Shown here in pieces: positions 12,374 to 62,858 of a DNA stretch of 64,000 nt. The number at the start of each line of letters is the position of its first letter. Position 1 is the stretch's first letter. The stretch lies in contig NZ_CP107819.1 of NCBI RefSeq assembly GCF_036346295.1, forward strand, positions 6,758,001 to 6,822,000. The letters are read 5' to 3'. Below the pieces are notes generated by a model. The model saw nothing but the letters and a program-made list of their open reading frames with translations, was not told where the DNA came from and did not search any database. The position numbers and the translations under genes are program-made. Source of the DNA: Streptomyces sp. NBC_00536 (GTDB lineage Bacteria > Actinomycetota > Actinomycetes > Streptomycetales > Streptomycetaceae).

Positions 12374-12379
12374 ACGGAG

Positions 12380-15762: not shown

Positions 15763-15797
15763 GACCGAGCAGAGCCGAGCAGGACCGAGCAGAGCCG
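15761..15797 (+). repeat. Short tandem repeat at the permease 3' end
   Basis: A 20-bp unit (AGGACCGAGCAGAGCCGAGC) starts inside the permease stop codon and is followed directly by a second copy matching its first 17 bases. It lies in the 106-bp convergent gap before cobK. No terminator-like hairpin is evident there. Confidence 0.6.
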
Positions 15798-15868
15798 CTG
15801 GCCGCCGCGGCAAAAGCGTGCTGGGCACTGCACGGCGCGGCAAGAACGCCCATGCCGACCTCCCCCGG

Positions 15869-16600: not shown

Positions 16601-16621
16601 GTGGCGGTCCGCGCGGGGCGC

Positions 16622-16746
16622 GGGGGCCTCCGGCGGGTCCTCAAACGCCGGACGGGCTGGATTTGGCTGGGCTTCCGGGCCCGTGCGGGTTGTGGGGGCC
16701 TCCGGCGGGTCCTCAAACGCCGGACGGGCTGGATTTGGCTGGGGCC
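16622..16746 (+). repeat. Interspersed GC-rich repeat, two forward copies between cobM and cobK
   Basis: Two copies of the element also found at 6471-6725. The unit GGGGGCCTCCGGCGGGTCCT plus CAAACGCCGGACGGGCTGGA and a TTTGGCTGGG tail lies at about 16622-16671 and 16694-16744. A third partial tail (GGGCTGGATGTGGCTGGGG) follows to about 16778. On the minus strand the block is open in frame with cobK. Confidence 0.85.
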
Positions 16747-16781
16747 CCGGGTCCGTGCGGGCTGGATGTGGCTGGGGCCCT

Positions 16782-17531: not shown

Positions 17532-18835
17532 GTGCGGTCCTCTGCTTCCGGTTCCGGTTCCGATGATGGTGATGACGACGACGATGCTGCTGCTGACTTC
17601 GTCACCGACCATTGGGTGACCGCCATCGCCTGGCGCCAGCCCGTGAAGGCGCCGACCGCCACCGCGTGTGCGACGGCGAGTTTGACCAGGTCGCCGCCGT
17701 GGCCCCGGTACCACTGCGCGAGCAGTGCCTCCGACTCCAGGGTGACCGTGTTGGCGACGAGGCGTCCGCCCACCGGCAGCGCCGACCACACCGCGTCGAG
17801 CAGCCCCGGCGCGGTCAGCCCGCCGCCGATGAACACCGCGTCGGGCGCGGGCAGTCCGTCGAGGGCGGCCGGGGCCGCGCCGAGGACGACGCGCAGGGCG
17901 GGTACGCCCAGGGCGTCGGCGTTGCGGGTGATCCGCCCCGCCCGCTCCGGGTCGCGCTCCACCGTCACGGTGCGGCAGGCCGGGTGGGTGCGCATCCACT
18001 CGATGCCGATGGAGCCGGAGCCGCCGCCGATGTCCCACAGGAGTTCCCCGGGCGCGGGGGCCAGGGCGGCGAGGGTCGCGGCCCGGACGTGGCGCTTGGT
18101 GAGCTGGCCGTCGTGCTCGTAGGCGGAGTCGGGCAGGCCGGGGCCCGCGCCCAGGCGCGGCACGCCCGCGGCCCGGCGGCAGTCGACGGCCACCACGTTC
18201 AGGGGGTCGCCGGGGGCGTGTTCCCACCGGTCGGCCGTGCCCTCGTACGTACGTTCCTCAGCGGATCCGAGCTGTTCCATGACCCGCATCAGGCTCGGGC
18301 CGAAGCCCCGCTCTCGTAGCAGAGCGGCGATCTCGCCCGGGGTGCCCGCGCCCGCGCTGAGCACCAGGACCCGGCGTCCCTCGTGCAGGGCGGCGGCGAG
18401 CCGGGCCACCGGCCGGCCCACGGTGGTGACCACTTCGGTGTCCTCCACCGGCCAGCCCGCCCGCGCGCACGCGTAGGACACGGACGAGGGGTGCGGGAGG
18501 ACCCGCAGGGCGTCCGGGCCCAGTTCCTCGGACAGCGCGCGGCCGATCCCGTAGAACATGGGGTCCCCGCTCGCCAGCACGGCGATCCGCTGCCCGGCGT
18601 ACTTCTCCAGCAGCCGGGGCACGGCGGGGCGCAGCGGGCTCGGCCAGGACACCCGCTCGCCCCCGCACTCGGCTTCGGGCAGCAGCACCAGCTGGCGCGG
18701 CCCGCCGATCAGCACGTCGGCGCGGGTCAGGGCGGTCCGGGCGGTACCGGTGAGTCCGGCCCAGCCGTCCGCGCCGATGCCGACGACCGTGACGGGCGGT
18801 CCGGTCGTCGCGGGGGGTGGTGGCAGGGGGCTCAT
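17528..18835 (-). CDS. cobL: Precorrin-6Y C5,15-methyltransferase (decarboxylating) CobL
   Basis: The product has 435 residues, with an ATG start nine bases after GAGG. The N-terminal half (about 15-215, CobL/CbiE) is a tetrapyrrole methylase with VVGIGADGWAGL, VLASGDPMFYGIG and LPHPSSVSYACAR. The C-terminal half (about 235-410, CbiT) is a class I methyltransferase with LTKRHVRA and LLWDIGGGSGSIGIEW. Together they methylate C5 and C15 and remove the C12 acetate carboxyl of dihydroprecorrin-6. The last 25 residues are a low-complexity Ser/Glu tail (SSSSSPSSEPEPE) not typical of the family. It is the first gene of the cobL-cobM-cobK operon. A TAGAGT -10 box lies about 35 bp upstream. Confidence 0.94.
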   Translation of the reverse strand: MSPLPPPPATTGPPVTVVGIGADGWAGLTGTARTALTRADVLIGGPRQLVLLPEAECGGERVSWPSPLRPAVPRLLEKYAGQRIAVLASGDPMFYGIGRALSEELGPDALRVLPHPSSVSYACARAGWPVEDTEVVTTVGRPVARLAAALHEGRRVLVLSAGAGTPGEIAALLRERGFGPSLMRVMEQLGSAEERTYEGTADRWEHAPGDPLNVVAVDCRRAAGVPRLGAGPGLPDSAYEHDGQLTKRHVRAATLAALAPAPGELLWDIGGGSGSIGIEWMRTHPACRTVTVERDPERAGRITRNADALGVPALRVVLGAAPAALDGLPAPDAVFIGGGLTAPGLLDAVWSALPVGGRLVANTVTLESEALLAQWYRGHGGDLVKLAVAHAVAVGAFTGWRQAMAVTQWSVTKSAAASSSSSPSSEPEPEAEDRT

Positions 18836-21722: not shown

Positions 21723-24059
21723 TCAGCCGGCCGGGCTCACCTGCACCGTGGTCAGCGCCCCGCCCGAGGCTTCCTTCACCACCGAGATCCGGGTCCCGGT
21801 GTCCGGCACCTTCACCCCGACCTGCGGCAGGTCGGCGTTCCAGTACGTGCCGTGCCGGTCGTCGAAGACGGGCACGCCCGGCCGCGCGGGCACCACCAGC
21901 GGCGCCCCCGCCTTGTGCAGCGTGATCTTGTCGCTCGGCCGCAGCGAGAACGTCGCGTCGAAGGTCTGCGCCCGGGCGTTGACCAGCGAGCCGTCCGGGA
22001 ACCGCAGCGCCTCGGGGCGGGCGTCGACCGGCAGCAGCAGGCCGCCGCCCGGGTGCGCCTTGGTGGTGTTGTCGCTGTACGCGGTGTCCCACAGCCAGAT
22101 GAGCACGCCCTGCTGGTAGGGGTAGAACTCCACCGTGTCGCCGCTCTGCCCGAAGTTGTACGGCCCGGTCTTGAGGTACTGGCCGAAACCGGTGTAGCGC
22201 CGGTTCTCCACCACGTAGGCGCGCGGGTGCTGCTCGGTGCCGTAACGCCCCTCGGTGCGCGACCACTTGAGGGCGGTCCAGCCGTTGTCGCCCTGCTCCG
22301 CGCCGTCGCGCAGCAGCTCGCGGCCGTCCGCCGTGATCCGCAGGTCGTCGAAGGCCGCGCCCTTGCCGTGGGTGTTGCTGTCGGAGGTCACCCGCAGCCG
22401 CAGCGAGACGCTCTTGCCCGCGTACGCGCCCAGGGGCACCCCGAGTTCGGCCCAGCCGCCCGAGGTGCCGGAGATCCCCTTCGCGGGGATCGCCGCGCCG
22501 CCGACCGTGCCCGGCAGGGCCGCCCAGGTCGCGCCGCCGTCCGTGGACGCCTCCACGGTGAGGAAGTCGAAGTCCTTCTCCACGTCGTACCAGACCCGGG
22601 CGTCGAGCCGGGCCGGGGCGCCGGCCGGGATCCCGGTGAGGTCGACCGTGCGCGTGAGGGTGTTGTCCATGAAGTCCCCGGTGCCGCTCCACCACTGGGC
22701 CGCGCCCTCGTACGGATCGGCCAGTTCGGTCCGGGTCACCGAGGGTGGCAGGTGCACCAGCAGGGCCTGTGGATCCTCGGTGTTGTAGCCGGAGACGCCG
22801 AGCACCGCCTTGGTCCTGCGGCCCGCGTCGGCTTCGGTGTATTCGAGCCAGCCCAGTTGGAGCTTGCTCCACGCGTCGAGGTCGCCGGGGAAGGCGCCGG
22901 TGGTGTTGGCGCCCTTGCCGAGGTAGGAGGCGGAGGACATCAGCGACCAGAAGTTGACGCTGTTGTCCCCGTCCGAGCTGTACAGATCGGGCAGGCCCAG
23001 ATCGTGGCCGAACTCGTGGGCGAAGAGGCCTACTCCGCTGTTCTCGCCGCCGGTCAGATAGTCACCCGCCCAGATCCCGGTGTCGCCGACCGGGGTGCCG
23101 CCCGCCTTGTTCCCCGCGGGGCCCGCGGTGCCGGCCTGGTCGTAGTAGGCGAACCAGCGGTGCGCCCAGACGGCGTCCTTGCCCTGCGCCCCGCCGCCCC
23201 AGGTCTGGTCCTTGCCCGCGTGCACGATGACGAGGTGGTCCAGGTAGCCGTCCGGCTCGTTGAAGTTGCCGTCGTGATCGGCGTCGTAGCGGTCCCAGAC
23301 GTCGTACTCGGCCAGCTCGGCCTTGATCTCGGCCGGGGTGCGGCCCTTGGCCACCTCGCCCCGGTACCAGGCGTCGGTGGCGTCGCGGACCAGGTCCCAG
23401 TTGGTGCGGCACTGGCCCGCTTCGGCGCAGTTGTCGGTGCCGTAACGGGCTTCGTTCCAGGGGAGTTTGACCCAGCCGGTGACCTGGCCGTCCATGTCGT
23501 AGCGGCCGGAGGACTGGAGGTCGTAGTAGGAGCGCAGGCTGACCGCGCCGGGGGCGTCGGAGAAGAACTGCTGCTGGTAGGAGGCCTGGCTGAAGTCCTT
23601 GCGCCACAGGGTGTGGTTGTCGCTCTTGTCCGGCTTGGGGATCGTGTTGTGCAGGGGGCCGGGCGTGCCGCCGAAGCGCGGCTTGCCCTCGTACTGCGTG
23701 GTGTTGTCGACCTGGTCGCCGAATTCGGCCAGGATCACGAACACCTTGTCCTTGCGTTCCTGGGCCAGTTCCACGTAGTTCTTGCCGACCTTGGCGGTGC
23801 GGGGGAGGGTGCCGTCCGCCTCGGCCCGCAGGGCCGCGGGGCCGCCGCCGGGCCCCGCGGCGACGCCTTCGAGGGCCTGGCGGCGCAGGGCCTGGCGCTG
23901 GAGTTCCAGGGGCGCGGGCGGCGGGGCGGCCGCCTGCTCGCTCCGGGTGGTCTGTGGTGCGGGGGCGGGCGGGACCGCGGCGAGCGCGGCGGGGGAGAGC
24001 GCGGGGGTGGCGAGGAGGGCGATGGCTATCGCCGCTCCTGCCGCGACGAGTCTGCGCAA
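21723..24059 (-). CDS. Secreted M6-family metallopeptidase (immune inhibitor A-like)
   Basis: The preproprotein has 778 residues and a TTG start with AAAGG upstream. Residues 1-28 are a signal peptide (MRRL, a hydrophobic core, then ALAA). A prosegment reaches about residue 110. The zinc site is HEFGHDLGLPD, with His348, Glu349 and His352. The peptidase domain is followed by a beta-rich region (about 455-640), with the WTALKWSRT and EQHPRAYVVENR blocks typical of InhA. It is probably a calcium-stabilised exoprotease for nutrition or host-protein degradation. The gene is monocistronic. A palindrome in the promoter region (24111-24122) suggests repression. Confidence 0.92.
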   Translation of the reverse strand: MRRLVAAGAAIAIALLATPALSPAALAAVPPAPAPQTTRSEQAAAPPPAPLELQRQALRRQALEGVAAGPGGGPAALRAEADGTLPRTAKVGKNYVELAQERKDKVFVILAEFGDQVDNTTQYEGKPRFGGTPGPLHNTIPKPDKSDNHTLWRKDFSQASYQQQFFSDAPGAVSLRSYYDLQSSGRYDMDGQVTGWVKLPWNEARYGTDNCAEAGQCRTNWDLVRDATDAWYRGEVAKGRTPAEIKAELAEYDVWDRYDADHDGNFNEPDGYLDHLVIVHAGKDQTWGGGAQGKDAVWAHRWFAYYDQAGTAGPAGNKAGGTPVGDTGIWAGDYLTGGENSGVGLFAHEFGHDLGLPDLYSSDGDNSVNFWSLMSSASYLGKGANTTGAFPGDLDAWSKLQLGWLEYTEADAGRRTKAVLGVSGYNTEDPQALLVHLPPSVTRTELADPYEGAAQWWSGTGDFMDNTLTRTVDLTGIPAGAPARLDARVWYDVEKDFDFLTVEASTDGGATWAALPGTVGGAAIPAKGISGTSGGWAELGVPLGAYAGKSVSLRLRVTSDSNTHGKGAAFDDLRITADGRELLRDGAEQGDNGWTALKWSRTEGRYGTEQHPRAYVVENRRYTGFGQYLKTGPYNFGQSGDTVEFYPYQQGVLIWLWDTAYSDNTTKAHPGGGLLLPVDARPEALRFPDGSLVNARAQTFDATFSLRPSDKITLHKAGAPLVVPARPGVPVFDDRHGTYWNADLPQVGVKVPDTGTRISVVKEASGGALTTVQVSPAG

Positions 24060-27098: not shown

Positions 27099-27845
27099 AT
27101 GCCCCTGCTTACCGATACCCAGCTGCCCGCCGTCCACATGGCCTCCGTGACCAAGAGCTACCCGAGCGCCGCGGGCCCGGTCCCCGTCCTGCACGCGGTC
27201 AGCGTCGGCTTCCCGCAGCGGGCACTGACGGCGGTGATGGGTCCCTCGGGCTCCGGCAAGACCACCCTGCTGCACTGCGCGGCGGGCCTGGACACCCCCG
27301 ACAGCGGGCAGGTCTTCCTCGGTGACACCGACCTCGCGGCCTGTGACGAGCGCGAGCTGACCCGGGTGCGGCGCGACCGGATCGGTTTCGTCTTCCAGCA
27401 GTTCAACCTGCTGCCCATGCTCACCACCTACGAGAACGTGGCCCTGCCGCTGCGGCTCCAGGGTGGCCGGGTCCGAAAGGCCAAGGTCATGGAGGCACTG
27501 GCGCAGGTGGGGCTCGCGGACAAGGCGGACCGGCGCCCGGCCCAGCTCTCCGGCGGCCAGCAGCAGCGGGTCGCCATCGCCCGCACCCTGGTCGCCGAAC
27601 CGGAGATCGTCTTCGCCGACGAGCCGACCGGCTCCCTGGACCGGCAGACCGGCCGGCAGATCATGGCGCTGCTGCGCGACACCGTGGACCGGGCGGGCCG
27701 TACGGTCGCCATGGTCACCCACGACCCGGCGGCCGCCGCCTGCGCGGACCGGGTGATCTTCCTGTCCGACGGCCGGGTCGTCGGCCGTCTCGACCATCCG
27801 ACGGCCGACGCGGTCGCCGCCCAGCTCAGCGTCTGGGAGCGCTGA
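27099..27845 (+). CDS. ABC transporter ATP-binding protein (MacB/LolD type)
   Basis: The protein has 248 residues. Motifs are Walker A GPSGSGKTT, Q-loop FQQFNLLPMLTTYEN, signature LSGGQQQR, Walker B IVFADEPTGSLD and VTHD. It is paired with the FtsX-type permease that starts at the last base of its stop (TGATG). Such exporters commonly pump out or give resistance to peptide antibiotics. Its position between two two-component systems and about 5 kb from the NRPS genes makes it a candidate exporter or immunity pump for the peptide (inference). The ATG has only a weak CTGGGG upstream. Confidence 0.92.
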   Translation: MPLLTDTQLPAVHMASVTKSYPSAAGPVPVLHAVSVGFPQRALTAVMGPSGSGKTTLLHCAAGLDTPDSGQVFLGDTDLAACDERELTRVRRDRIGFVFQQFNLLPMLTTYENVALPLRLQGGRVRKAKVMEALAQVGLADKADRRPAQLSGGQQQRVAIARTLVAEPEIVFADEPTGSLDRQTGRQIMALLRDTVDRAGRTVAMVTHDPAAAACADRVIFLSDGRVVGRLDHPTADAVAAQLSVWER

Positions 27846-29830
27846 TGTGGCGCATATCGGTCCAGTCCGTGCGCCACTACTGGGCGCTGTTCGTCGGTAC
27901 GTTCGTCGCGCTCGCCCTCGGCGTGGCGCTCATCGGGGTCTCGGCCGCCGCCCTGGCCGCCACCTGGTCGGTGCCCGCCCCCGCCGCTGACCTCCCCTCG
28001 GTCACCCTCACCGACGGGACGGGCACGGCCCGTACCCTCTCCGGCGGGACCCTGGACATGGGCGGCGTACAGAGCGTCCTGGCGATGGCCGGGGTCGTCT
28101 CTGCCTTCGTGACCGTCTTCGTCATCGCGGGCACCTGCGCCTTCGGCATCGCGCTGCGCCGCCGGGACATGGGGCTGCTGCGCCTTGTCGGCGCGGGCGG
28201 CCCGCAGGTGCGCCGGATGGTGCTGGGCGAGTCCCTCGCGGTGGCCGTGCCCGCCGCCGTGACCGGCTGCCTCGCCGCGGCCGTGGCCGCGCCCTCCGTG
28301 CTCGACGCCCTGAACAGCACCGGCCTCTCCCCGGTCGAGCTGCACCCGGGCCCGGTGCTGTGGCCGCTGGTGTTCGCCGCGGGCAGCGGTCTGCTCATCG
28401 CGGTACTGGGCGTCTTCGCCGCCTCGAAGCGTGCGGCCCGGGTCCGGCCCACCGAGGCCCTGCGCGAGGCCGACCTGGACGCCAAGGCGATGACCGCCGG
28501 GCGCGCGGTGACGGGCGCGGCGCTGCTGGTCACCGGCGCCGTCATGGTGAGCATCGCGCCCGGCTCCGGTGCGGAGGCGGCCACGCCGCTGGCCCTCTTC
28601 GGCGCGATGGCACTGGCCGTCGCGGCGACCCTGCTCGGCCCCGCCTACCTCCCGCCGCTGCTGCGGCTGCTGTCCCTGCCGCTGCGCTGGGCCGACCCGG
28701 TCGCCGGACGGATGGCCGCCGCCTCCGTCACCACCTCGCGCCGCCGCACCGCCTCGCTGGTGGGACCGGTCCTGGCGATCGTCGCCATCGTCGGGGTGTT
28801 CACCACCGTCCTGTCCACCGCCGGCGCCGCCACCGAGGCCGACGACCGGGCCCGTACCGCCGCGCAGTTGATCGTCGAGCCCGTGGGCGGCGGCGGGCTG
28901 AGCGCCGCCGACCTCGCGGCGCTGCGCGCCGATCCGCGGGTGGCGGCCGTCTCGGCGCCGGCCCCGCTGGAGGTGGCGGTCGCCGGAGCGATCGAGGTGT
29001 GGAAGGACCAGGCGGCGGTGGCCGACCCGGCCGCCCTCGCCCGGACCCACCGGATCACCGTCACCGAGGGCACGGCGGGCGCCCTCGCGCCCGGAACGGT
29101 CGCGGTCTCCAAGGAGTTCGCCGACTGGTACGGACGCCACGCGGGCACCGAAGTGACGTACGGCCTCTTCGGCGGCCGGACGGTCAAGGCCAAGGTCGTC
29201 GCCGTCCTGGACGGCGGGTCGGCGGTGCCGCACCTGCTGCTCCCCGCCGCCGACGCGGCGGGCGCGGCCGCCGCACCCGAGCGGGCGAGCGTCCTGCTCG
29301 ATCCGGGGGCCGCGGGCTCGGCCGGCGCGGTCGCCGCCGACCTGACCCGGCGCCTGGGCCCGGACCGGGTCGAGGTCACCGAGAGCGTCCGCTGGTTCGA
29401 CCACCACTCCACCGGCCAGGACCGGCTGAACCGCCTGGTGTTGCTCGTCCTGACCGGGCCCGCCTCGCTGTACGCGCTGATCGCCGTCGCCAGCACCCTG
29501 GTCATGTCCTACAGCAGGCGCGGCCGCGAGGTCGCCGGGATGCGCATGATCGGGGTGAGCGCGGGACAACTGCGCCGCACCGCCGTGTGGGAGACCCTCG
29601 CCACCACCACGGCGGGCATCGCGATCGCCGCCGCCATCGTCACCATCGGCGCCCGGTCCTACCGGGGCGCGCTCACCGTCCTCGGCGGCGAACCCCCGCT
29701 GAGCGTGCCGTGGGCCCTGCTCGCCGCCCTGGCCGGGTCCTGCGTGCTGGTGGGCGTGGTGGTCAGCCTCGTCGCGACCGGGCGCCTGCTCCGGCAAGGG
29801 GGCGTGGCGGCGATCACTTCCCGGCAGTGA
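27845..29830 (+). CDS. ABC transporter permease with two FtsX domains
   Basis: The protein has 661 residues. The first FtsX domain has helices at about 15-40, 75-100, 130-155 and 175-205 (with IALRRRDMGLLRLVGAGGPQ). Two helices lie at about 220-265. A periplasm-side-type extracellular domain covers about 310-510. The second domain (about 530-650) has REVAGMRMIGVSAGQLRRTAVWE. The motif after the second helix, where the permease couples to the ATPase, is conserved in both halves. It is translationally coupled to the ATPase gene. The following 137 bp contain a weak CGGCGA/TCGCCG dyad and a short pyrimidine-rich stretch, but no strong terminator. Confidence 0.88.
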   Translation: MWRISVQSVRHYWALFVGTFVALALGVALIGVSAAALAATWSVPAPAADLPSVTLTDGTGTARTLSGGTLDMGGVQSVLAMAGVVSAFVTVFVIAGTCAFGIALRRRDMGLLRLVGAGGPQVRRMVLGESLAVAVPAAVTGCLAAAVAAPSVLDALNSTGLSPVELHPGPVLWPLVFAAGSGLLIAVLGVFAASKRAARVRPTEALREADLDAKAMTAGRAVTGAALLVTGAVMVSIAPGSGAEAATPLALFGAMALAVAATLLGPAYLPPLLRLLSLPLRWADPVAGRMAAASVTTSRRRTASLVGPVLAIVAIVGVFTTVLSTAGAATEADDRARTAAQLIVEPVGGGGLSAADLAALRADPRVAAVSAPAPLEVAVAGAIEVWKDQAAVADPAALARTHRITVTEGTAGALAPGTVAVSKEFADWYGRHAGTEVTYGLFGGRTVKAKVVAVLDGGSAVPHLLLPAADAAGAAAAPERASVLLDPGAAGSAGAVAADLTRRLGPDRVEVTESVRWFDHHSTGQDRLNRLVLLVLTGPASLYALIAVASTLVMSYSRRGREVAGMRMIGVSAGQLRRTAVWETLATTTAGIAIAAAIVTIGARSYRGALTVLGGEPPLSVPWALLAALAGSCVLVGVVVSLVATGRLLRQGGVAAITSRQ

Positions 29831-29967: not shown

Positions 29968-30639
29968 ATGCGCGTCGCGATCGCCGAGGATTCCGCGCTC
30001 TTGCGAGCAGGAATAGCGAGGCTGCTGGCCGACGAAGGAATTGACGTCGTCGCATCGATGGGTGACACCACGAATGTGCTCGACGTCGTCCGCACCACCC
30101 GGCCGCACGTGGTGATCCTGGACGTCCGGATGCCGCCCACCCACACCGACGAGGGCATCCGGGCGGCCATCGAGATCCAGCGGCACTGCGAGGGGACCGC
30201 GGTGCTGCTCCTCTCCCAGTACGTGGAGCACACGTACGCCGAGGAACTGGTCCGCAACGCCCGAGGTGGGACGGGGTACCTGCTCAAGCAGCGGGTGGGC
30301 GACTTCGACGAGTTCCTCTCCGCCCTCCAGCGGGTCCGCGCCGGGGAGACCGTCCTGGACTCCGACATCTTCAAGCAATTCGTGGGCAGCCCGCGGGAGA
30401 AGCGGGCCACGGACCTGCTGACGCCCCGTGAACGCCAGGTCCTGGAACTCATGGCCACCGGCCTCACCAACGGCGGAATCGTCAACCGCCTCGGCATTTC
30501 CGAACGCGCCGTGGAAAAACACGTCACCGCCATTCTCGGGAAGCTGCAGATCCCCAATACCGGAGAGAATCACCGCAGGGTGCTCGCGGTACTCGACTAT
30601 CTGCGCGGCATCGAACGGCTGCAAGACATCACCGAGTGA
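29968..30639 (+). CDS. NarL/LuxR-family response regulator
   Basis: The product has 223 residues and an ATG five bases after CAGGAG. Receiver: AEDS at 6-9, Asp52 in VVILDVRMPP and Lys in GYLLKQRVG. The LuxR helix-turn-helix (about 152-212) reads LTPRERQVLELMATGLTNGGIVNRL, then ERAVEKHVTAILGKL. It resembles the regulator at 24989 along its whole length. Third-position A/T codons are somewhat commoner here (for example GAATTGACG, GAAAAACAC, AATACC) than in neighbouring genes, hinting at a different history. Together with the downstream kinase it is the closest regulatory pair to the NRPS genes. Confidence 0.92.
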   Translation: MRVAIAEDSALLRAGIARLLADEGIDVVASMGDTTNVLDVVRTTRPHVVILDVRMPPTHTDEGIRAAIEIQRHCEGTAVLLLSQYVEHTYAEELVRNARGGTGYLLKQRVGDFDEFLSALQRVRAGETVLDSDIFKQFVGSPREKRATDLLTPRERQVLELMATGLTNGGIVNRLGISERAVEKHVTAILGKLQIPNTGENHRRVLAVLDYLRGIERLQDITE

Positions 30640-30645
30640 AATGTA

Positions 30646-32040
30646 GTGGTTCGTAGTTCCGTGAAATTGCCGACTCCCTACCGCGTCGCGGCCGGTCTCA
30701 TCTACCTGTCCGTCGGCAGCCTGGTCGGCCTCCTGCTGGCCCCGCTCGTCGTCGTCTCCCTGGTGCTGCGCGCCGTCTCCTGGCTGCCGCTCGTGGGCCT
30801 GCCGCGGGCGCTCTCCCTGTGCGTGCGCGGCGGATCCGCCCTCGCCCGCTGGGCGGGCCGCGCGCCCGCGGACCGGCCGCCCCGCAGCAGCCCCCTGTCC
30901 GAGGCGCTGCGGGAGGTCCCGGCCAAGATGGCCGCGCTGCGCGACGGGTTCTCCTTCAGCCTCCCGATGCTGCGCGCCGTCGCCGACCTGGAGCGGCTGC
31001 TGGCCCACTCGGTGGCCGTGGACCGGCCGGGACCGGGCGAGCCGCCGCACCCGGCGAGCGCGCAGCGCGAGGAACAGCGCGAGTCCTCCGAGGCGAACTG
31101 GGACGACATCGGCTACCTGGGCCTACTGCTGCTCGGCACGGTGTGGCTGATCCCGCTGGCCGCACTGGCGATCCCCGTGGTCTCCTTCCTCGTCGCGCTG
31201 CCCGTCGGCCCGACCGAGCAACTCGCCTTCGGCCCCGGCAACACGATCCTGGTCGACGGCCCCGGCACCCGGATCCTGGTCGCCCTCGGCTCCGTGGTCA
31301 CCTTCGCCGTCCTGACCACCCTGCTCTTCGGGATGGGCCGGCTGCGCGCCCGTATGGTCCGCCGCATCCTCAGCCGGATCGACGAGGCCGAGGCGCAGCG
31401 CCGGGCGGCGGCCGCGGAACGCCAGCGCATCGCCGCACTCCGGGTCAACGACGCCGATTACCGGCGTCTGGAACGCGATCTGCACGACGGCGCGCAGGCC
31501 CGGCTGGCGATGCTCCTGATGACGCTCTCCTATGCGAAAAAGCGCCGCAGCGATGACGCGGAATACCTCACCGCGCTGATCGAGGAAACCCGGGAAGAAG
31601 TCCGCCGGGCCCTCGACGAGATACGTGATCTGGTCCGTGGAATCCAGCCGCCCATTCTCAGCGACCGCGGCCTCGACGCCGCCGTCATCGCACTGACCGA
31701 GAAATTCCACGTGCCGGTATCGGTATCCGGCAGGCTGGCGCGCAGGCCGGATGTCAATGTGGAATCCGCGGCTTATTACATCATCGTGGAATGCCTGGCC
31801 AACACGGTCAAGCACGCGGGCGCGACCTCCATCGACGTCAGCCTGGAGCAGTACGACAACCACCTGGTCGTCTCGGTGACGGACGACGGCGTCGGCGGAG
31901 CCTCCTGCAGCGCCGGTACGGGCCTGCGCGGCCTGGAGGACCGGGCGGCGGCCCTGGGCGGACGGCTGGATGTGGTCAGCCCCGCCGGGGGTCCCACCAC
32001 GGTCCGGGCCACCCTTCCCTGGTCGTTGAACAAGGTCTGA
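30646..32040 (+). CDS. Two-component sensor histidine kinase (HisKA_3 type)
   Basis: The product has 464 residues from GTG 30646, six bases after the regulator stop; GTG 30661 is an alternative. A helix or hairpin at about 15-50 is followed by a soluble loop (60-145), then two helices at about 150-180 and 205-230. A coiled segment ([20 protein letters not shown]) leads to the phospho-site His in [16 protein letters not shown]. The ATPase domain has [30 protein letters not shown] and [14 protein letters not shown]. It forms an operon with the regulator and may control the cyclase and NRPS genes just downstream (inference from position only). Confidence 0.9.
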
Positions 32041-32169: not shown

Positions 32170-33516
32170 GTGGAAGCGCACCAAGCGGCGGAACGGCTGC
32201 GGGAACTCGCGCACGACCACACCGTTCCCGGCGCGCAACTGACCGTTCACCGGGCGGGGGAGAGCCTCTCCCTGGCCGCCGGAGCGGTCCGGGCCGGCGG
32301 CCCCGAGGCGGTCACCACCGCCACGGGATTCGCCTACGGATCCGTCACCAAGGCCTTTACCGCCACGGTGGTCGCTCGGCTGGAGTCCGACGGGGATCTC
32401 GAACTCGACGATCCGGTCGGGGAGTACCTGGCCGAGTTCGACGCGGCGACGGACGAGGCGATATCGTCCGTCACCCTGCGGAATCTGCTGAGCCACACGG
32501 CGGGCCTGATCGCCGACCACGAGCCGGACCGGGCGGAAGACGCCTCCCTGGCCCGATATGCGGCGAGCATGGCGACCACCGGATCGCTGCACGAACCGGG
32601 CGGCTTCTTTTCGTACTCGAATTCCGGTTACAACATTCTGGGCCGGGTCATCGAAGCCGTCACCGATATGACGTGGCGACAGGCGCTGGGGAACCTCCTG
32701 CTGCGCCCGCTCGCCATCCAACCGCTGTTCCTGCACGGCCCGCAGGCCCCCGGCCGCACCCTCGCCGACTGCCACACCGTGCGGCCCGGCGAGCGCGTCG
32801 CGCGACCCGCGGACCTGTACGTGCCGCCCAGCTGGGCACCGGCCGCGGGGCTCGCCGGAAGCGCCGACGACCTGATCGCGCTGGCCCGGCTCCACCTCGG
32901 CACCCATCCCGCGACCGCCGCCGCGGCGGGCGCGCGGGGGCTCGCCGGGACGGGCGTACGGGTGCCCGCGGCCGATGCCTTCGGGATGGCCGACGGCTGG
33001 GGCCCGGGTCTGGCCCACTACGCCTCGCCCGAGGGCGACTGGCTCGGGCACGACGGCACCGTCGACGGCAGCACCTCCCACCTCCGCTTCCACCCGGCGA
33101 GCGGCACCGCCGTCGCCCTGACCACCAACTCCACCACCGGCACGCTGATGTGGGCCGACGTGGTGGACTGGCTCCGTGAACGGGGCATCCCGGTCGGCGA
33201 CTACCGGCCGGTCCTGCCCCCGCAGGCCCCGCCCGGCGCGGACCTCCGAGCACTGACCGGCGAATTCCGCAACGGTGACACGTACTTCGCCGTCCGCGCC
33301 CACGGCGACGCGGGCGACGGCCGGGGGCTGCGGCTCTCCGATGGAACCGGCCTGGTCGCCGATCTGACCCTGTACGACGGGCTGGTCTTCACCGCCCGGC
33401 GCGCCGACGCCGAAGAGGCCCCGTACGCGGGCCGGTTCGTCCTCGACCCGGCCACCGGCGAGGCCGCCCTGATGCAGCTCGGCGGACGCTCCGCCCGGCG
33501 CGTGGCGGCGCTCTAA
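32170..33516 (+). CDS. Stand-alone PBP-type thioesterase / peptide cyclase (beta-lactamase fold)
   Basis: This 448-residue serine hydrolase has the class C beta-lactamase/penicillin-binding-protein fold. The nucleophile motif is S58-V-T-K61, the second motif Y149-S-N151 and the third H294-D-G296. It has no signal peptide or membrane helix, so it is cytoplasmic. A cell-wall or secreted beta-lactamase role is therefore unlikely. The C-terminal about 110 residues form a lipocalin-like domain, as in stand-alone NRPS cyclases such as SurE (about 450 residues). Those enzymes take a peptide from the last carrier protein and join its N-terminus to a D-residue at the C-terminus. The neighbouring NRPS ends in an epimerization domain with no thioesterase, which is the context these cyclases serve. 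GTG start; GGGAGAG lies upstream. Confidence 0.83.
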   Translation: MEAHQAAERLRELAHDHTVPGAQLTVHRAGESLSLAAGAVRAGGPEAVTTATGFAYGSVTKAFTATVVARLESDGDLELDDPVGEYLAEFDAATDEAISSVTLRNLLSHTAGLIADHEPDRAEDASLARYAASMATTGSLHEPGGFFSYSNSGYNILGRVIEAVTDMTWRQALGNLLLRPLAIQPLFLHGPQAPGRTLADCHTVRPGERVARPADLYVPPSWAPAAGLAGSADDLIALARLHLGTHPATAAAAGARGLAGTGVRVPAADAFGMADGWGPGLAHYASPEGDWLGHDGTVDGSTSHLRFHPASGTAVALTTNSTTGTLMWADVVDWLRERGIPVGDYRPVLPPQAPPGADLRALTGEFRNGDTYFAVRAHGDAGDGRGLRLSDGTGLVADLTLYDGLVFTARRADAEEAPYAGRFVLDPATGEAALMQLGGRSARRVAAL

Positions 33517-33890
33517 TGCCGGGCCCGCAGAGGTGTAACGGGCGGTGTCCGGGGCGGTAAAGGCCGCTGCCCCGGGCGTAGCCGCTGCCCCGAGCGGCGG
33601 CCACGCCGTGACCTGACCGTCCGGCCGTATCCCGATCACCCGGCCCGGCCGCACCGCGCCTCGCCCTCGGCGCTCCCCTCACCGCCTCTTCCTCCGCTTT
33701 CCGCTCCCCGCCCCCTCCTCGGCTTCTCGCTCCCCGCCGTCCCGTCCCCCATCCCCCTCCGCCGCGGCGCGGTTCCGCTCCGCCCGCGCGGCCCCCCTTC
33801 TCCGCTTCACCTCATCGCACCCCTCACCGGTTCCCGGGCTGCCCGCCCCGGCATTCCCCTGCCCGGAACCGCCCTTTCTGGAGGTACAAC
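33517..33890 (+). other. 374-bp gap before the NRPS genes, with polypyrimidine tract
   Basis: No gene is seen. Positions 33655-33820 are nearly all C and T on the plus strand (runs such as CCTCTTCCTCCGCTTTCCGC and CCCCTCCTCGGCTTCTCGC). A strong ribosome binding site, GGAGG at 33880-33884, precedes the NRPS GTG by six bases. No consensus promoter is evident. The gap is too short to hold the missing first half of the condensation domain of the downstream synthetase. Confidence 0.6.
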
Positions 33891-44261
<10,371 letters not shown>

Positions 44262-44314
44262 GCAGTTCCTGAGCACCACCACACCCCTTCCGTCCCCACC
44301 CGAAAGGACCCCTC

Positions 44315-44539
44315 GTGTCCAACCCCTTCGAACAGTCCGACCGCTCCTACGGCGTCCTGGTCAACGACGAGGGCCAGCACTCGCTGTGGCCCACCGGCAC
44401 CGCCGTCCCCGCGGGCTGGCACGTCGCCCTCGCCGACCGGCCCCGCGAGGAGTGCCTCGCCTACGTCGAGGCCCACTGGACCGACATGCGCCCGCGCAGC
44501 CTGGCCGCCGCCTCCGATCCCGCCGCCACCCGCGCCTGA
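44315..44539 (+). CDS. MbtH-like protein
   Basis: The product has 74 residues, with a GTG start after GAAAGGA. It begins MSNPFEQ and keeps the family tryptophans and core: SYGVLVNDEGQHSLWP, VPAGWHVAL, then ECLAYVEAHWTDMRP. MbtH-like proteins bind adenylation domains and are often needed for their folding and activity. It lies between the two synthetase genes (53 bp and 69 bp gaps), so it presumably serves the adenylation domains of both. Confidence 0.96.
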   Translation: MSNPFEQSDRSYGVLVNDEGQHSLWPTGTAVPAGWHVALADRPREECLAYVEAHWTDMRPRSLAAASDPAATRA

Positions 44540-44608
44540 CACCGCCTCCGCCGCCACGGGCGGCCGCCGCTCCGAACCGCTGAACCGCACTCCCTGGGGG
44601 ATCCCTCG

Positions 44609-57028
<12,420 letters not shown>

Positions 57029-57077: not shown

Positions 57078-58058
57078 ATGGCGCGCTATGTGCTGAGCGA
57101 CGAAGAGAAGAAGGGCGTGGCGACCCTCGCCGACGCGTTCCTCGCGGCGCACCCCGTCTGGGAACCGATGGAATACGCGGACGCGATACGCGTCGAGGCG
57201 GAGCGACTCCCGGTGGGAGTACGGCAGTTCCTCGTCTCCTCGCGCGCCGCCGAGGACGCGGTGATCGCGGTGGCGAACCTGCCCGTCGACGAGAACCTCG
57301 TGCCCACCCCGCCGAGCTGGCAGATCGCGGAGAAGGAAGGCGCCGCGATCCGCGAGGAACTCGTGCTGCTGCTCATCGCCTCCGTGCTCGGTGACCCCTT
57401 CGCCTGGACCAGCCAGCAGAACGGGCGGCTCGTCCACGACGTCTGCCCGTCCAAGGGCCAGGAGGCCTCGCTGACCAGCGCGAGCAGCGAGCAGCAGCTG
57501 ACCCTGCACACCGAGGACGTGTTCCACACCTGCCGCGGCGACTACGTCGCCCTGATGTGCCTGCGCAACCCGGACGGGGTGGGCACCACGGTCGCGCCGG
57601 TCGACGCGGTGGAGGTCGCGCAGCCGCTGCGCGAGGTGCTGCACCAGGACCGGTTCCGGTTCTTCCCGGACGACTCGCACGACGTGGTGCCCGACCACAG
57701 CGCGGAGCACCCGTCCGCGCTGGAGGAGCGGCCGCACGAGGTGGCGTCCGTACTCTTCGGGCCCGAGGACGCGCCGTACCTGCGGATCGACGCCGACTTC
57801 ACCAGCCCGCTGGAGGGCGACGCGGAGGCGGAGCGGGCCATGAACGAGGCCGCCGGGCAGCTGGCCGCCGCCGCCGAGCGCGTCGTGCTCAGCCCGGGCG
57901 AGGCCGCGTTCATCGACAACTACCGGGTCATCCACGGCCGGGACACCTTCACGCCGCGCTACGACGGCACGGACCGCTGGCTCAAGCGCACCAGCATGGT
58001 GCGCGACCTGCGCCGTACGTACGTCCACACCAAGTCGCGCTCGCGGCTGCTCGCCTGA
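57078..58058 (+). CDS. Fe(II)/2-oxoglutarate oxygenase, clavaminate synthase-like (amino-acid beta-hydroxylase family)
   Basis: The protein has 326 residues, with GAAGGA upstream of the ATG. The iron ligands are His144 and Glu146 in LHTED and His286 in RVIHGRD. The H-x-E form, followed by CRGDYVALMCLRNPDGVGTT, is typical of the clavaminate-synthase-like group that includes the Asn hydroxylase AsnO, the Arg hydroxylase VioC and the enduracididine hydroxylase MppO. Those enzymes hydroxylate the beta-carbon of free amino acids used by an NRPS. Here a basic residue for A4 is the best candidate, but hydroxylation of another residue is possible. It follows the second synthetase by 49 bp and overlaps the MFS gene by one base (TGATG), so it belongs to the NRPS operon. 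Confidence 0.88.
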   Translation: MARYVLSDEEKKGVATLADAFLAAHPVWEPMEYADAIRVEAERLPVGVRQFLVSSRAAEDAVIAVANLPVDENLVPTPPSWQIAEKEGAAIREELVLLLIASVLGDPFAWTSQQNGRLVHDVCPSKGQEASLTSASSEQQLTLHTEDVFHTCRGDYVALMCLRNPDGVGTTVAPVDAVEVAQPLREVLHQDRFRFFPDDSHDVVPDHSAEHPSALEERPHEVASVLFGPEDAPYLRIDADFTSPLEGDAEAERAMNEAAGQLAAAAERVVLSPGEAAFIDNYRVIHGRDTFTPRYDGTDRWLKRTSMVRDLRRTYVHTKSRSRLLA

Positions 58059-59350
58059 TGGCGGCGGAACAGGGCGGGGGGAGGCGCGGTGGCGGCGGTC
58101 GCGGGTTCACCCTCCTGTGGACGAGCCAGGCGTTCAGCGAGTTCGCGTACAGCACCTCCCTGATCGTGCTGCCGCTGATCGTCCTCGCGATCACCGGCTC
58201 GCCCTTCCAGGCGGGGATCATCGGCTTCGTCGACGCGGCGGCCATGCTCCTGGCGGGCCTGCCCGCCGGAGCGGTCGCCGACCGGTACGACCGGCGCTCG
58301 GTGATGCTGTGGTGCGAGGCCGCGCTGGTCGCCGTCTTCGGCGCCCTGGCCCTGCTCCTGTGGGCCGGGGAGGTCTCCCTGCTCCCGCTGGTGGCGCTCG
58401 CGCTGGTCAACGGCGCGGCGACGGCCATGATGATGGCGGCGGGCGAGGCGATGATCCCGAGCCTGGTGCCCCCGGCCAAGCTCCCGCAGGCCGTCGCCAT
58501 GAACTCGGCGCGGACGTACGCGGGCCAGCTCGCCGGGACCTCGGCGGGCGGGTTCCTGCTGGCGCTGAAGAACGCCTTCCCGTTCGCGGCGGGCTGCGCG
58601 GCGCACCTCGCCGCACTGGTCCTGCTGCTGTTCATGCCGCGACGGCCGACGGCGCCCGCGGCTCCCGAGGCGGAGGCGGGCGCGGACCCGGCCGGGCCGG
58701 GTGGCGGCCGTCGGGAACTGCTGGAGGGGATCCGCTGGATCGCCCGCCACCCGTTCCTGCGGCTCGCCCTCGGCTACGCCACGGCGACGAACCTCTTCTT
58801 CGGCGCCATCTACTTCATCGTCATCGCCTCCGCGCAGAGCAGCGGCATGAACCCCGGGCTCATCGGCCTCATGGCCGGCCTGCTCGGCGTCGGAGGCCTG
58901 CTGGGCGCCCTCGCGGCGCCCCTGCTGATGCGGACGCTGACCGGCTCCCGGCCCATCCACCTGGTGCTGTGGCTGTTCGCGCTGCTCACCGTCGGCATCG
59001 CGGTGCTCCCCGGCGGTTACACGCCCGGGATCCTGCTGGGCGCGATCGCCTTCGCCGCGCCCACGGCCAGCGCCTGCTTCCAGACGTACCTGCTGATGCT
59101 CACCCCCGACAGCCACCGGGGGCGGGCGATCAGCGTCGCGGGGATCTGCAGCGGCGCCGGGGGCGCGATCGCCCCGCTCGGCGGCGGCGTCCTGCTCGAC
59201 CTCGCGGGCCGGACCGCGGGGCTGCTGGGCTGCGCCGCCGTCATGGCGGCGATCGCCTTGTCGGCCGTACTGAGCCCGGTCATGCGCAAGGCCCCGGAGC
59301 CGGAGCGGCACGCGGCCGGTGCGGCGGCCCGGGAGAAGACCCCCGCGTGA
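58058..59350 (+). CDS. MFS transporter, probable peptide exporter
   Basis: This 430-residue membrane protein has about 11-12 helices in two halves separated by a hydrophilic loop (about residues 188-220). The loop after helix 2 has the MFS motif GAVADRYDRRSVML. The family is the drug-efflux type (MFS_3, enterobactin-exporter-like). The second half includes IYFIVIASAQSSGMNPGLIGL, and a helix with PTASACFQTYLLMLTPDSHRGRA. The ATG shares one base with the oxygenase stop, which indicates coupling. It probably exports the finished peptide or a precursor. Confidence 0.88.
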   Translation: MAAEQGGGRRGGGGRGFTLLWTSQAFSEFAYSTSLIVLPLIVLAITGSPFQAGIIGFVDAAAMLLAGLPAGAVADRYDRRSVMLWCEAALVAVFGALALLLWAGEVSLLPLVALALVNGAATAMMMAAGEAMIPSLVPPAKLPQAVAMNSARTYAGQLAGTSAGGFLLALKNAFPFAAGCAAHLAALVLLLFMPRRPTAPAAPEAEAGADPAGPGGGRRELLEGIRWIARHPFLRLALGYATATNLFFGAIYFIVIASAQSSGMNPGLIGLMAGLLGVGGLLGALAAPLLMRTLTGSRPIHLVLWLFALLTVGIAVLPGGYTPGILLGAIAFAAPTASACFQTYLLMLTPDSHRGRAISVAGICSGAGGAIAPLGGGVLLDLAGRTAGLLGCAAVMAAIALSAVLSPVMRKAPEPERHAAGAAAREKTPA

Positions 59351-59405: not shown

Positions 59406-60632
59406 ATGACCACCACTCCCGCCCCCGCGCCCGCCCCTGTGCCCACCCCCGCCCAGCAGCTCGATCTGGCGAACCCGGACCTCTACACGACCGACGACCG
59501 CTTCGCGATGTGGCGCGAGTACGTCGCCTCCGACGCCATGGTCTGGAGCGAACCCGGCATCTCGCCCAGCGGGTTCTGGTCGGTCTTCTCGCACAAGGAC
59601 GTCTCCGCCGTCCTCTCCCCGAAGGCGCCCTTCACCTCCGAACACGGCATGATGATCGGCTTCGACGCCGAACACTCCGACAACTCCGGCGGCCGGATGC
59701 TCGTCGTCAGCGAGGGCAGCTGGCATTCCCTGCTCAAGCGGCTCATCGGCCCGTTCCTTTCCCGCTTGCGGGCCCCCGAACTCGAATCGGTACTGCGGCA
59801 CGAGGTCAAGGAGATCATCGAGCGGCTGAAGTCCGAGGAAAGCACCGATATCGCCCTGGAGGTCGGCCCCCGGCTGCCCGCCGCGATCGTGTGCGAGGTC
59901 ATCGGCGTACCGATCGGCGAGCGCGAGCAGCTGATCGAGTTGACGAACCACGCCTTCGGCGGGGAGGACAGTTCCTTCGACAAGATGACCCCCGCCGAGG
60001 CGCACACGGAGATCCTCTTCTACTTCCACGAGCTGATCGAGCGCCGCCAGCGGGAGCCCGGACAGGACCTGGTGAGCGCGCTGCTGGCGGACGGCCGGCT
60101 GAGCACCGAGGACGTGCTGATCAACTGCGACAACGTGCTGATCGGCGGCAACGAGACGACCCGGCACTCGATCACCGGCGCCTTCCACGTCGCCCAGCGC
60201 TTCCCCGGCACCCTGGACGCCCTGCACGCCGACCCCGGGCAGACCGACCGGGCCGTGGAGGAGCTGGTCCGCTGGACCTCCCCGGCCGCGCACGTCCTGC
60301 GGGTGGCCACGGAGGACTGCGAGATCGGCGGCCGGCCCGTCCGCCGGGGCCAGCCCGTGGTGGCCTGGCTGTCCGCGGCCAACCGCGACGAACGGCTCTT
60401 CCCCGACCCGCACACCTTCCTGCCGGACCGCACCCCCAACCGCCACCTGGGCTTCGGCACCGGCCCGCACCACTGCCTGGGCGCCGCCCTGGCCCGGGTC
60501 GAGCTGCGGGAACTGCTGCGCCAACTGGCCACCGAGGCGCGGGGCGTCCGGCTGCGGGGCGAGGTGCGCTGGATGCGCTCGAACCTGGTGCAGGGCTACA
60601 GCAGCCTGCCGGTCTCGATGGAGTGGCGCTGA
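59406..60632 (+). CDS. Cytochrome P450
   Basis: The product has 408 residues, normal for a soluble bacterial P450. The heme-binding motif is FGTGPHHCLGA, with Cys357. The oxygen-binding I-helix reads NVLIGGNETTRHS near 245, where the usual acid-alcohol pair appears as ETTR. The ExxR pair is in EELVRW. ATG 59406 is preferred; ATG 59379 in frame would add nine residues. Ferredoxin partners are not adjacent. Situated 55 bp after the MFS gene, it should modify an amino-acid building block, a carrier-bound residue or the cyclic peptide. The site of oxidation cannot be predicted from sequence alone. Confidence 0.92.
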   Translation: MTTTPAPAPAPVPTPAQQLDLANPDLYTTDDRFAMWREYVASDAMVWSEPGISPSGFWSVFSHKDVSAVLSPKAPFTSEHGMMIGFDAEHSDNSGGRMLVVSEGSWHSLLKRLIGPFLSRLRAPELESVLRHEVKEIIERLKSEESTDIALEVGPRLPAAIVCEVIGVPIGEREQLIELTNHAFGGEDSSFDKMTPAEAHTEILFYFHELIERRQREPGQDLVSALLADGRLSTEDVLINCDNVLIGGNETTRHSITGAFHVAQRFPGTLDALHADPGQTDRAVEELVRWTSPAAHVLRVATEDCEIGGRPVRRGQPVVAWLSAANRDERLFPDPHTFLPDRTPNRHLGFGTGPHHCLGAALARVELRELLRQLATEARGVRLRGEVRWMRSNLVQGYSSLPVSMEWR

Positions 60633-60715: not shown

Positions 60716-61531
60716 TTGCTGGAACTGCGCCTCGACGTCGAGGATCTGGCCCGTATTCATGTCGTCAGCACGCTCGGTGTCGCTTTCGAGACCCATTTCG
60801 CATGGGCCCGTCTCGGTGAGCAGCAACGTGACGGATTAGCGGAATGGCGTCGCACCACCCGGCACCGGATGCGGCGCACATCCACCGCGCATTCGGCGAT
60901 GGAACCCTCGCTTTCCCTGCTGGAAACCCTCACTTCACCCGCTCCGCGTGACGGGGACGCCTTCCACGCCACCGCGGTCGAACCCTTCTGGGACCGGATA
61001 CTGCGCGCCCTGAAGGCGGAACGCGACGCGTGCGGGCGGGCCATGCTGGCCGGCGGGATGGAGCACGTACTGAACAGCCTCCACCAGGCCATCCATTGGG
61101 CGGCGCCGGTGCTGCGCATCGCCAACTCCCAGTCGCCCCGCACGGCCGATCTCGCCGGGCGCGGAATGACCATCGTGCCCTCGCTGTTCGCCCCGCAGCC
61201 CTTCCTCATCGATGCCCACATGGGCTGGCACGGCCTGCCGATCCTGGTCTACAACATCACCCCGGACCCGGAGTCGGCGGCCGCGATGTGGCAGGGTCAG
61301 GAGGGCGAATCGGCCCTGCGCGACCTGCTGGGCCGCACCCGGGCCGACGTACTGGCCACCCTGCAGAAGGCCCGCTCCACCGGAGAGATAGCCGACCGGC
61401 TCCAGATCTCCAGCCCCTCGGCCAGCAAACACATCACGGTCCTGCGCCGGGCGGGCTTCGTGACCACCGAACGCAGACAGAACTCCTCGGTCCACACCCT
61501 CACCCCGCTGGGTGAGGCCATCCTCGGCTGA
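60716..61531 (+). CDS. ArsR-family winged-helix transcriptional regulator
   Basis: The product has 271 residues and a TTG start eight bases after GGGGGAG. The winged helix is at the C-terminus (about 205-270): ALRDLLGRTRADVLATL, ARSTGEIADRLQISSPSASKHITVL, then RRAGFVTTERRQNSSVHTLTPLGEAIL. The N-terminal about 190 residues form an uncharacterised ligand or dimerisation domain. This large C-terminal-wHTH form is common in Streptomyces beside biosynthetic genes and is not the metal-sensing type, as no cysteine cluster is visible. It probably controls this transcription unit, and perhaps the NRPS operon, in response to a product or precursor. It is followed by the thioesterase gene after 15 bp. 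Confidence 0.85.
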   Translation: MLELRLDVEDLARIHVVSTLGVAFETHFAWARLGEQQRDGLAEWRRTTRHRMRRTSTAHSAMEPSLSLLETLTSPAPRDGDAFHATAVEPFWDRILRALKAERDACGRAMLAGGMEHVLNSLHQAIHWAAPVLRIANSQSPRTADLAGRGMTIVPSLFAPQPFLIDAHMGWHGLPILVYNITPDPESAAAMWQGQEGESALRDLLGRTRADVLATLQKARSTGEIADRLQISSPSASKHITVLRRAGFVTTERRQNSSVHTLTPLGEAILG

Positions 61532-61546: not shown

Positions 61547-62269
61547 ATGCCCTACCTGGTCCGCCACACGTCCCCCGCCGCGCCCACCCTGCGCCTGGTG
61601 TGCTTCCCGCACGCGGGCGGCGGCGCGAGCTTCTTCCGCGGCTGGAGCAAGCACCTGGCCCCGTCGGTCGAACTGCTGGCGGTGCAGTACCCGGGCCGGG
61701 AGAACCGCTTCACGGAACCCCTGGTCGGGGAGCTGGCCCCGCTGGCCGCCGGCGCCAGTGCCGAACTCCTCGCCGAACCCGCGCTGCCCACCGTACTGTT
61801 CGGCCACAGCATGGGCGCGATGGTCGCCTACGAGACCCTCCTGCGCCTGGAGGCGTCGGGCGCCACGCACTTCACCCGGCTCTGCGCCTCGGGCCGCGCC
61901 CTGGACGCGCCCCCGGTCGGTGCGGGCGAGGACACGGACGCCGAGCTGATCGCGGCCGTCAAGGCCCTCGGCGGCACGAACGCACAGGTCTGGGACAACC
62001 CGGAACTGAGCGAGATGCTCCTCCCGATCATCCGCAACGACTACCGCCTGATCGACGCCTACCGCCGCGCCCCCGGCATCCCGAAGCTGCGCGCGGAGGT
62101 CCTCGCCCTCTCGGGCGACGCGGACCCCCGCATCACCCCGGACCAGGCCACCCTCTGGGCGACGGCCACCACGGGCCCCTTCGCCTCCCAGGTCTTCGAG
62201 GGCGCCCACTTCTACCTGACGGCCCACGCCCCCGAGGTGGCCCGCCGCGCCGTGGCGGCCGCGCTCTAG
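61547..62269 (+). CDS. Type II thioesterase (alpha/beta hydrolase)
   Basis: The product has 240 residues. The serine hydrolase motif is GHSMGA, with Ser88; the acid is in SGDADPRITP, and the catalytic His221 is in GAHFYL. The N-terminal RLVCFPHAGGGASFFRGW block and the QYPGRENR block are typical of NRPS/PKS editing thioesterases, which remove wrong acyl or aminoacyl groups from carrier proteins. It is not expected to do the final cyclisation, which is assigned to the PBP-type enzyme at 32170. It is co-transcribed with the ArsR-type regulator. Confidence 0.93.
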   Translation: MPYLVRHTSPAAPTLRLVCFPHAGGGASFFRGWSKHLAPSVELLAVQYPGRENRFTEPLVGELAPLAAGASAELLAEPALPTVLFGHSMGAMVAYETLLRLEASGATHFTRLCASGRALDAPPVGAGEDTDAELIAAVKALGGTNAQVWDNPELSEMLLPIIRNDYRLIDAYRRAPGIPKLRAEVLALSGDADPRITPDQATLWATATTGPFASQVFEGAHFYLTAHAPEVARRAVAAAL

Positions 62270-62276: not shown

Positions 62277-62858
62277 CTACCGCCCCCGGTACAGCTCCCG
62301 GGCCCGCGCGAAGTCGACGGACCCGCCCTCACGCCCGTCCAGGTGCAGGAAGTGGCGTGACTGCCACTCCTGCGCCGCACCGGCCTGCCGGTTGGCGGTG
62401 GTCACCCAGGGCGGGTACACCCGGAAGGCCCGCTTCCCGCCGCGCCCGTCCACGGAGACCACCCCGTGCCGGCGCAGGGCGTCAACGGGAAAGACGAACT
62501 GCCCGAAACCCCCCTCGTCCCGAGCACTGATCACGAACAGATCCACGGCATCGGCGGCGTCGAACGGCGCGATGGGCCCGCCGCCCGGGGCCCGCTTCCA
62601 CACGGTGACGAACTGCCCCACCTTGGTCGGCGTCACCTTGGCCACCCGGAACCGCACGGCCAGCCCGTCGACCGCGAACGAGTGGGCGGCGTAGGCGGTG
62701 CTCTCCTCCTCCGGCACCGGCCGCGAACAGACGAACCCGCAGGGATCGTAGAGCAGCGCCTTCGCCGCGAGCAGATCCCCGTGCACGACGCCGCTCTCGT
62801 CCGTCCACGCCACCGGCCCGGCAGCGGCGGCCCCCTCATCCACACGACGCGTCATCAT
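62277..62858 (-). CDS. MepB family protein
   Basis: The product has 193 residues; two adjacent ATGs (62858 and 62855) are possible starts. The sequence fits the MepB family: HSFAVDGLAVRFRVAKVTPT, then KVGQFVTVWKR, PIAPFDAADAVDLFVI, GQFVFP, GKRAFRVYPPW and a closing QAGAAQEWQSRHFL. MepB proteins are named after a gene in the mepRAB multidrug-efflux operon of Staphylococcus and have no known biochemical activity. The gene converges on the thioesterase with 7 bp between stops, overlaid by a TAGGGG/CCCCTA dyad. It is divergent from the FAD enzyme gene. It probably marks the edge of the peptide cluster. Confidence 0.82.
   Translation of the reverse strand: MMTRRVDEGAAAAGPVAWTDESGVVHGDLLAAKALLYDPCGFVCSRPVPEEESTAYAAHSFAVDGLAVRFRVAKVTPTKVGQFVTVWKRAPGGGPIAPFDAADAVDLFVISARDEGGFGQFVFPVDALRRHGVVSVDGRGGKRAFRVYPPWVTTANRQAGAAQEWQSRHFLHLDGREGGSVDFARARELYRGR

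Follow-up and report, generated by a model that had tools for sequence, protein, structure and literature searches.

The closest described relative of the system considered here is the flk cluster of Streptomyces albus J1074. Its two nonribosomal peptide synthetases (NRPSs) are FlkP, with the order A-PCP-C-A-PCP-E-C-A-PCP, and FlkS, with the order C-A-PCP-E-C-A-PCP-C-A-PCP-E (A, adenylation; PCP, peptidyl carrier protein; C, condensation; E, epimerization), and an MbtH gene lies between the two. FlkO is the likely release and cyclisation enzyme, FlkT is a VioC homologue, FlkU a transporter of the major facilitator superfamily (MFS), FlkW an ArsR-type protein whose gene has a TTA codon, and FlkX a type II thioesterase (PMC8399532). 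FlkO, a thioesterase of the penicillin-binding protein (PBP) type, has been characterised in vitro and is reported to act on a peptide that ends in D-allo-Thr (PMC11735501). Here I consider a stretch of 64,000 nucleotides from Streptomyces sp. NBC_00536 (contig NZ_CP107819.1, forward-strand positions 6,758,001 to 6,822,000), called the window below and the source of all coordinates that follow, in which a stand-alone gene for a PBP-type enzyme (32170-33516) precedes two large NRPS genes. I propose with high confidence that this is an flk-type cluster, in which the FlkO-type enzyme closes a hexapeptide ring head to tail in trans. Very probably the cluster belongs to the published cyclofaulknamycin kind; the pairing of cyclase and NRPS is not new, since it has already been published for that compound with FlkO.

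The protein encoded at 32170-33516 has 448 residues and carries the motifs S58-V-T-K61, Y149-S-N151 and H294-D-G296, just as an earlier note on this DNA had read them. That note also took the protein to be cytoplasmic, and the gene agrees: its reading frame begins only 9 bp (three codons) ahead of the GTG start, which leaves no room for a signal peptide. Pfam labels the protein Beta-lactamase, and its N-terminal domain has that fold. Might it then be a class C beta-lactamase or an esterase that lies beside the synthetases by chance? This is hardly credible. The NCBIfam model of class C beta-lactamases, NF033085, gives 77.6 bits against a curated cut-off of 415, and a search of the PDB finds SurE at 278 bits and Ulm16 at 234.6 bits. 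In the alignment S58, K61, Y149, N151 and H294 fall on S63, K66, Y154, N156 and H305 of SurE, which makes the catalytic set complete. A fold model of the protein (pLDDT, the predicted local distance difference test, 92.6) has eight strands between residues 364 and 444, forming a C-terminal lipocalin-like domain. Its best matches are again SurE and Ulm16, aligned over residues 1-445, and the class C enzymes listed cover it only to about residue 341. The esterase IS11 also matches at full length, spanning residues 1-446, and so the two-domain feature is not exclusive to the SurE family.

Phylogeny was the check that the earlier note had put forward, and it separates the protein from both kinds of enzyme. 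The protein falls with SurE and Ulm16 in a group of 56 rows (SH-aLRT, the Shimodaira-Hasegawa-like approximate likelihood ratio test, 97), outside of which lie the beta-lactamase CMY-2, the esterase IS11 and 12 PF00144 paralogues from the same genome. This is a quick tree of 70 rows (66 different sequences), with a single class C enzyme, long-branch warnings on the outgroups and no settled order of subgroups. The paralogues were drawn from the genome's 23 other PF00144 matches, of which 20 were fetched and 8, short or low-scoring, were dropped. Then there is the matter of gene order. Next after the cyclase gene comes the start of the first synthetase, a C remnant and an A domain, in eight of nine named loci (the sequence of L004 ends there) and in all seven genomes fetched, the two sets having some strains in common. 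Because this order recurs, the pairing of cyclase and NRPS is not due to chance. The 374 bp that the earlier note gave for the gap between the two genes is right. Its description of the cyclase gene as an orphan has to be given up: the gene belongs to a largely conserved set of 13, all on the forward strand.

The synthetases follow flk closely. NRPS1 (FlkP-type, 33891-44261) reads C remnant-A1-T-C-A2-T-E-C-A3-T, where T is thiolation, the carrier protein, and where the remnant (residues 2-239) is without HHxxxDG. NRPS2 (FlkS-type, 44609-57028) reads C-A4-T-E-C-A5-T-C-A6-T-E, and an MbtH-like gene (FlkR-type, 44315-44539; PF03621, 86.7 bits) lies between them. The nine-position codes of the A domains are DAWTIAAVC (Phe), DGMLVGAVV (Leu) and DAFWIGGTF (Val) for A1 to A3, and DLAESGAVD (hydroxy-Arg or capreomycidine), DFWSVGMVH (Thr) and again DFWSVGMVH (Thr) for A4 to A6. 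Across the six domains 52 of 54 code positions are identical to those in the flk table of PMC8399532. The likeness to flk covers module order, E positions, codes and the site of the MbtH gene, and extends to the PBP-type cyclase, a putative VioC-like gene, an MFS transporter, an ArsR-type gene with TTA, a stand-alone thioesterase and the lack of a type I thioesterase.

This last point bears on how the chain is released. The terminal E domain of NRPS2 takes up residues 3701-4139 of 4139, the very end of the protein, and no thioesterase follows it, as had been claimed. Nor was a type I thioesterase domain, one of the two findings that the earlier note said would refute its idea, discovered in the cluster beyond the window: in a whole-genome search with PF00975, the sole match within 300 kb is a stand-alone gene at 61547-62269 (FlkX-type, type II-like, 240 residues). 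That gene lies within the window and outside the stretch that the earlier note covered, and so the cluster does have a thioesterase gene of its own. One could imagine that it releases the peptide and that the PBP-like protein has some other role, such as resistance. I consider this highly improbable. The nearest PDB chains to the thioesterase are 6vap (named Thioesterase, 167 bits) and RifR (163 bits), the latter of which I take to be a type II thioesterase, and with these as its best solved relatives the protein was rejected as a type I release enzyme. The PBP-like protein is placed in a clade of cyclases. In the surugamide system, moreover, the cyclase is SurE, not SurF (PMC7459860).

PBP-type enzymes couple an N-terminal L-residue to a C-terminal D-residue (PMC11735501), a need that is fitted by a module 1 without E and a module 6 that ends in E. 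To judge from sequence, then, the locus belongs to this family: a SurE-type PBP thioesterase beside an NRPS that lacks a thioesterase and whose last module would furnish a D-residue. I propose that the six modules assemble on their carrier proteins the chain Phe(beta-OH)-D-Leu-Val-D-capreomycidine-Thr-D-allo-Thr, in which residue 4 may instead be the hydroxy-Arg precursor of capreomycidine, and that the FlkO-type enzyme receives the finished chain in trans from the last carrier protein. Ser58, activated by Lys61 and Tyr149, would form an acyl-enzyme at D-allo-Thr. Attack on it by the amino group of residue 1, which has the L-configuration, would close the ring head to tail. The predicted product is cyclo(phenylserine-D-Leu-Val-D-capreomycidine-Thr-D-allo-Thr) or a close congener. 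What is observed of the enzyme is its active-site residues, its predicted fold and its place in the family, and of the cluster the domain order, the synteny and the specificity codes; from these I infer the reaction and assign it to this enzyme. The suggestion of head-to-tail macrocyclisation in trans, made in the earlier note, is supported to that extent by the clade shared with SurE and Ulm16 and by the absence of a type I thioesterase.

A more serious objection is that the PBP-type enzyme may chiefly hydrolyse the chain, yielding a linear peptide like faulknamycin. In S. albus the cyclic compound is accompanied by linear iso-faulknamycin, and in the work of Tryon et al. the cyclic form is said to have gone undetected throughout (both as told in PMC8399532, which for S. 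albus gives m/z 732.4 for the cyclic and 750.4 for the linear form). However, FlkO cyclises in vitro (PMC11735501), and the linear peptide of S. albus has Thr first, ahead of phenylserine (PMC8399532), so that its sequence is that of the modules circularly permuted. I would argue that a permuted peptide is more readily explained by the opening of a ring already closed than by direct hydrolysis. On balance hydrolysis as the main outcome is unlikely, and cyclisation by the FlkO-type enzyme is the preferred reading.

Within the cyclase family the enzyme differs from its described relatives near the pocket for the C-terminal residue. SurE of surugamide (6KSU) shares its fold, the Ser-Lys-Tyr-Asn-His set and action in trans on an NRPS ending in E, but is about 38-41% identical, takes octa- and decapeptide substrates, and differs at two aligned positions: Leu231 of SurE corresponds to Trp222 of the window protein, and the pocket residue four places on, Gly235, to Ala226. 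Ulm16 of ulleungmycin (8FEK) shares the fold, the active site and a hexapeptide substrate, but is 41-44% identical, has Ser at the position of Trp222, and accepts C-terminal Gly as well (PMC11735501). FlkO takes only small C-terminal residues (D-Ala, D-Thr and the native D-allo-Thr), a preference linked in the same source to bulkier pocket residues (PMC11735501). Trp occupies position 222 in all 59 homologues of at least 52% identity, against 3 of the 60 whose identity is no higher than 45%. These counts cover 119 of the 120 listed out of 306 homologues and exclude the window's own copy (P0004); the flk-type group was delimited by an identity threshold (52-55% or more) and not from the tree. 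Trp222 may therefore be what narrows the pocket, and a narrow pocket around Trp222 and Ala226 would favour a small D-residue. The same cyclase family includes the SurE domain embedded in BifB of biffamycin (PMC13285481), fused to the NRPS rather than standing alone as here. A BifB-like case was met at 890-10183 of locus L060 (G057:C1), an NRPS frame with a PBP-type thioesterase (TE) domain and the order C-A-T-E-C-A-T-PBP-TE.

How widespread is the system? Homologues of the cyclase at an E-value of 1e-60 or better occur in 56 of 392 genomes of the genus, and an flk-type cyclase (at least 55% identity; the next best reach at most 44%) in ten, the window's own included. Among the nine others, four (G090, G252, G054 and G035) have, within 40 kb, both synthetases complete with the terminal E and a VioC-like gene. 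Left out as complete were G145, with frame breaks, G273 and G085, with truncated synthetases, and G229 and G099. In G273 (L046-L047) and G085 (L048-L049) the flk-type cyclase is kept, NRPS1 is truncated and NRPS2 was not found within 40 kb; these clusters are apparently decaying or rearranged. The four complete clusters are not copies of the window: the scan found no MbtH, FtsX or adjacent cytochrome P450 gene in G054, no ArsR gene in G252 and no second thioesterase gene in G035, and the upstream regulator and transporter genes of G054 and G035 are arranged differently.

The codes differ as well. All five complete clusters, the window's and these four, keep a Phe-type A1, a Thr-type A6 and, at A4, the code DLAESGAVD. 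The codes of A2, A3 and A5 depart from those of the window in G054 and in G035 (DALAVGGSL, DVWCVAQVY and DVWDLGLIQ in the latter), and these two clusters (L054-L057) probably make different cyclic hexapeptides. By their codes the residues at either side of the ring closure appear to be kept and the inner ones exchanged, in what are only five genomes. A family of this sort provides a comparative set, ring-closing residue codes constant and inner ones varied, that suits the use of such enzymes as peptide-cyclising catalysts. Its members are easily passed over: among the close relatives listed, most are named serine hydrolase and some beta-lactamase family or CubicO peptidase, general labels under which PBP-type cyclases hide.

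There remains the origin of capreomycidine. The 2-oxoglutarate oxygenase at 57078-58058 (FlkT-type; PF02668) appears to be of the arginine beta-hydroxylase kind, its nearest PDB chains being the L-arginine beta-hydroxylases 2wbq, 6daz and 4m23 (about 220 bits) and CmnC. Against NCBIfam it scores 338 bits with GntD (cut-off 345) and 283.6 with VioC (cut-off 418.6), both below threshold, and since GntD, an enduracididine hydroxylase, outscores VioC, the substrate is not fixed by these models. VioD (TIGR03947) is above cut-off in 23 of the 392 genomes. It is found in the window's own genome and in none of the nine others with an flk-type cyclase, which include the four that have complete clusters; G273 and G229 have a homologue of 215 bits, below the cut-off of 390.9. 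The absence from nine amounts to a lack of association and not to depletion, because VioD is rare elsewhere too (22 of 382 genomes without the cyclase). In the window's own genome about 430 kb separate VioD from the present cluster. It belongs there to a second NRPS cluster (G000:C1:7228234-7267203; L063, L085, L086), which has a VioC-like gene beside it and carries eight A domains on its NRPS frames. For this reason and its absence from the nine, VioD was dropped as a general partner of the present cluster.

The absence of VioD from the nine suggests that capreomycidine may form without a dedicated VioD. Tryon et al. had the idea, for faulknamycin, that it forms on the assembly line (as told in PMC8399532), and the VioD distribution and a signature in the module-4 E domain are additions to it. 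The catalytic motifs of that domain are intact. At ten positions it carries residues that all five genomes share and that none of the 25 other E domains has (n=30, two pairs identical); at one of the ten the other domains have mostly gaps. Counted in the same way, the E domains of modules 2 and 6 give 0 and 0. The zeros mean that the signature is real within this set, and they do not tell what the residues do, which could also be to form a fitted binding site for a bulky basic residue. Two further considerations speak against independence from VioD: deletion of XNR_1347 in S. albus lowered production 5- to 12-fold (PMC8399532), and a sub-threshold aminotransferase could serve in VioD's place. 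That the module-4 E domain or its neighbours convert 3-hydroxyarginine into capreomycidine on the carrier protein, with no VioD-type enzyme, is a tentative proposal to which I would give somewhat less than even weight. The non-association of VioD nevertheless makes the origin of D-capreomycidine testable, and it is this VioD-independent route, in a kind of cluster already published, that is worth following up. Among open-licence PMC papers no publication was noticed that deals with this cluster itself or with the distribution of VioD.

The phenylserine may come from another gene of the cluster. The best solved matches of the P450 at 59406-60632 (PF00067) are 3mgx (515 bits) and 4l0e (241 bits), presumably OxyD and P450sky, enzymes that hydroxylate the beta-position of amino acids held on a carrier protein. 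This makes the P450 a candidate for beta-hydroxylation of carrier-bound Phe. By letter order it stands in the place of flkV, a sugar transporter gene according to the text of PMC8399532.

The other genes fill out the set. Ahead of the cyclase lie the ATPase (27099-27845; PF00005) and FtsX-type permease (27845-29830; PF02687) of an ATP-binding cassette (ABC) transporter, both placed by synteny also, flkK and flkL being ABC transporter genes. They are followed by a LuxR-type response regulator (29968-30639; PF00072, PF00196) and a sensor histidine kinase (30646-32040; PF07730, PF13796) of the flkM/N type. Counterparts of the methyl- and mannosyltransferase genes flkG and flkH were not seen in the upstream frames scanned, which were chosen frames and not every one. 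Beyond the oxygenase are an MFS transporter (FlkU-type, 58058-59350; PF07690 in the frame 57557-59350, with its start taken from synteny) and an ArsR-kind helix-turn-helix regulator (FlkW-type, 60716-61531; PF12840). The regulator gene, the start of which is unsettled, is the sole carrier of TTA among the 13 genes examined, at codon 41 if counted from an unconfirmed TTG start. To the left of the cluster the window holds corrin/cobalamin genes (CobN, TP_methylase and CbiJ, within 2535-18227) and, on the reverse strand at 21723-24059, a metallopeptidase like Immune inhibitor A (M6). Directly after the thioesterase gene, on the opposite strand at 62277-62858, comes a gene for a MepB-like protein.
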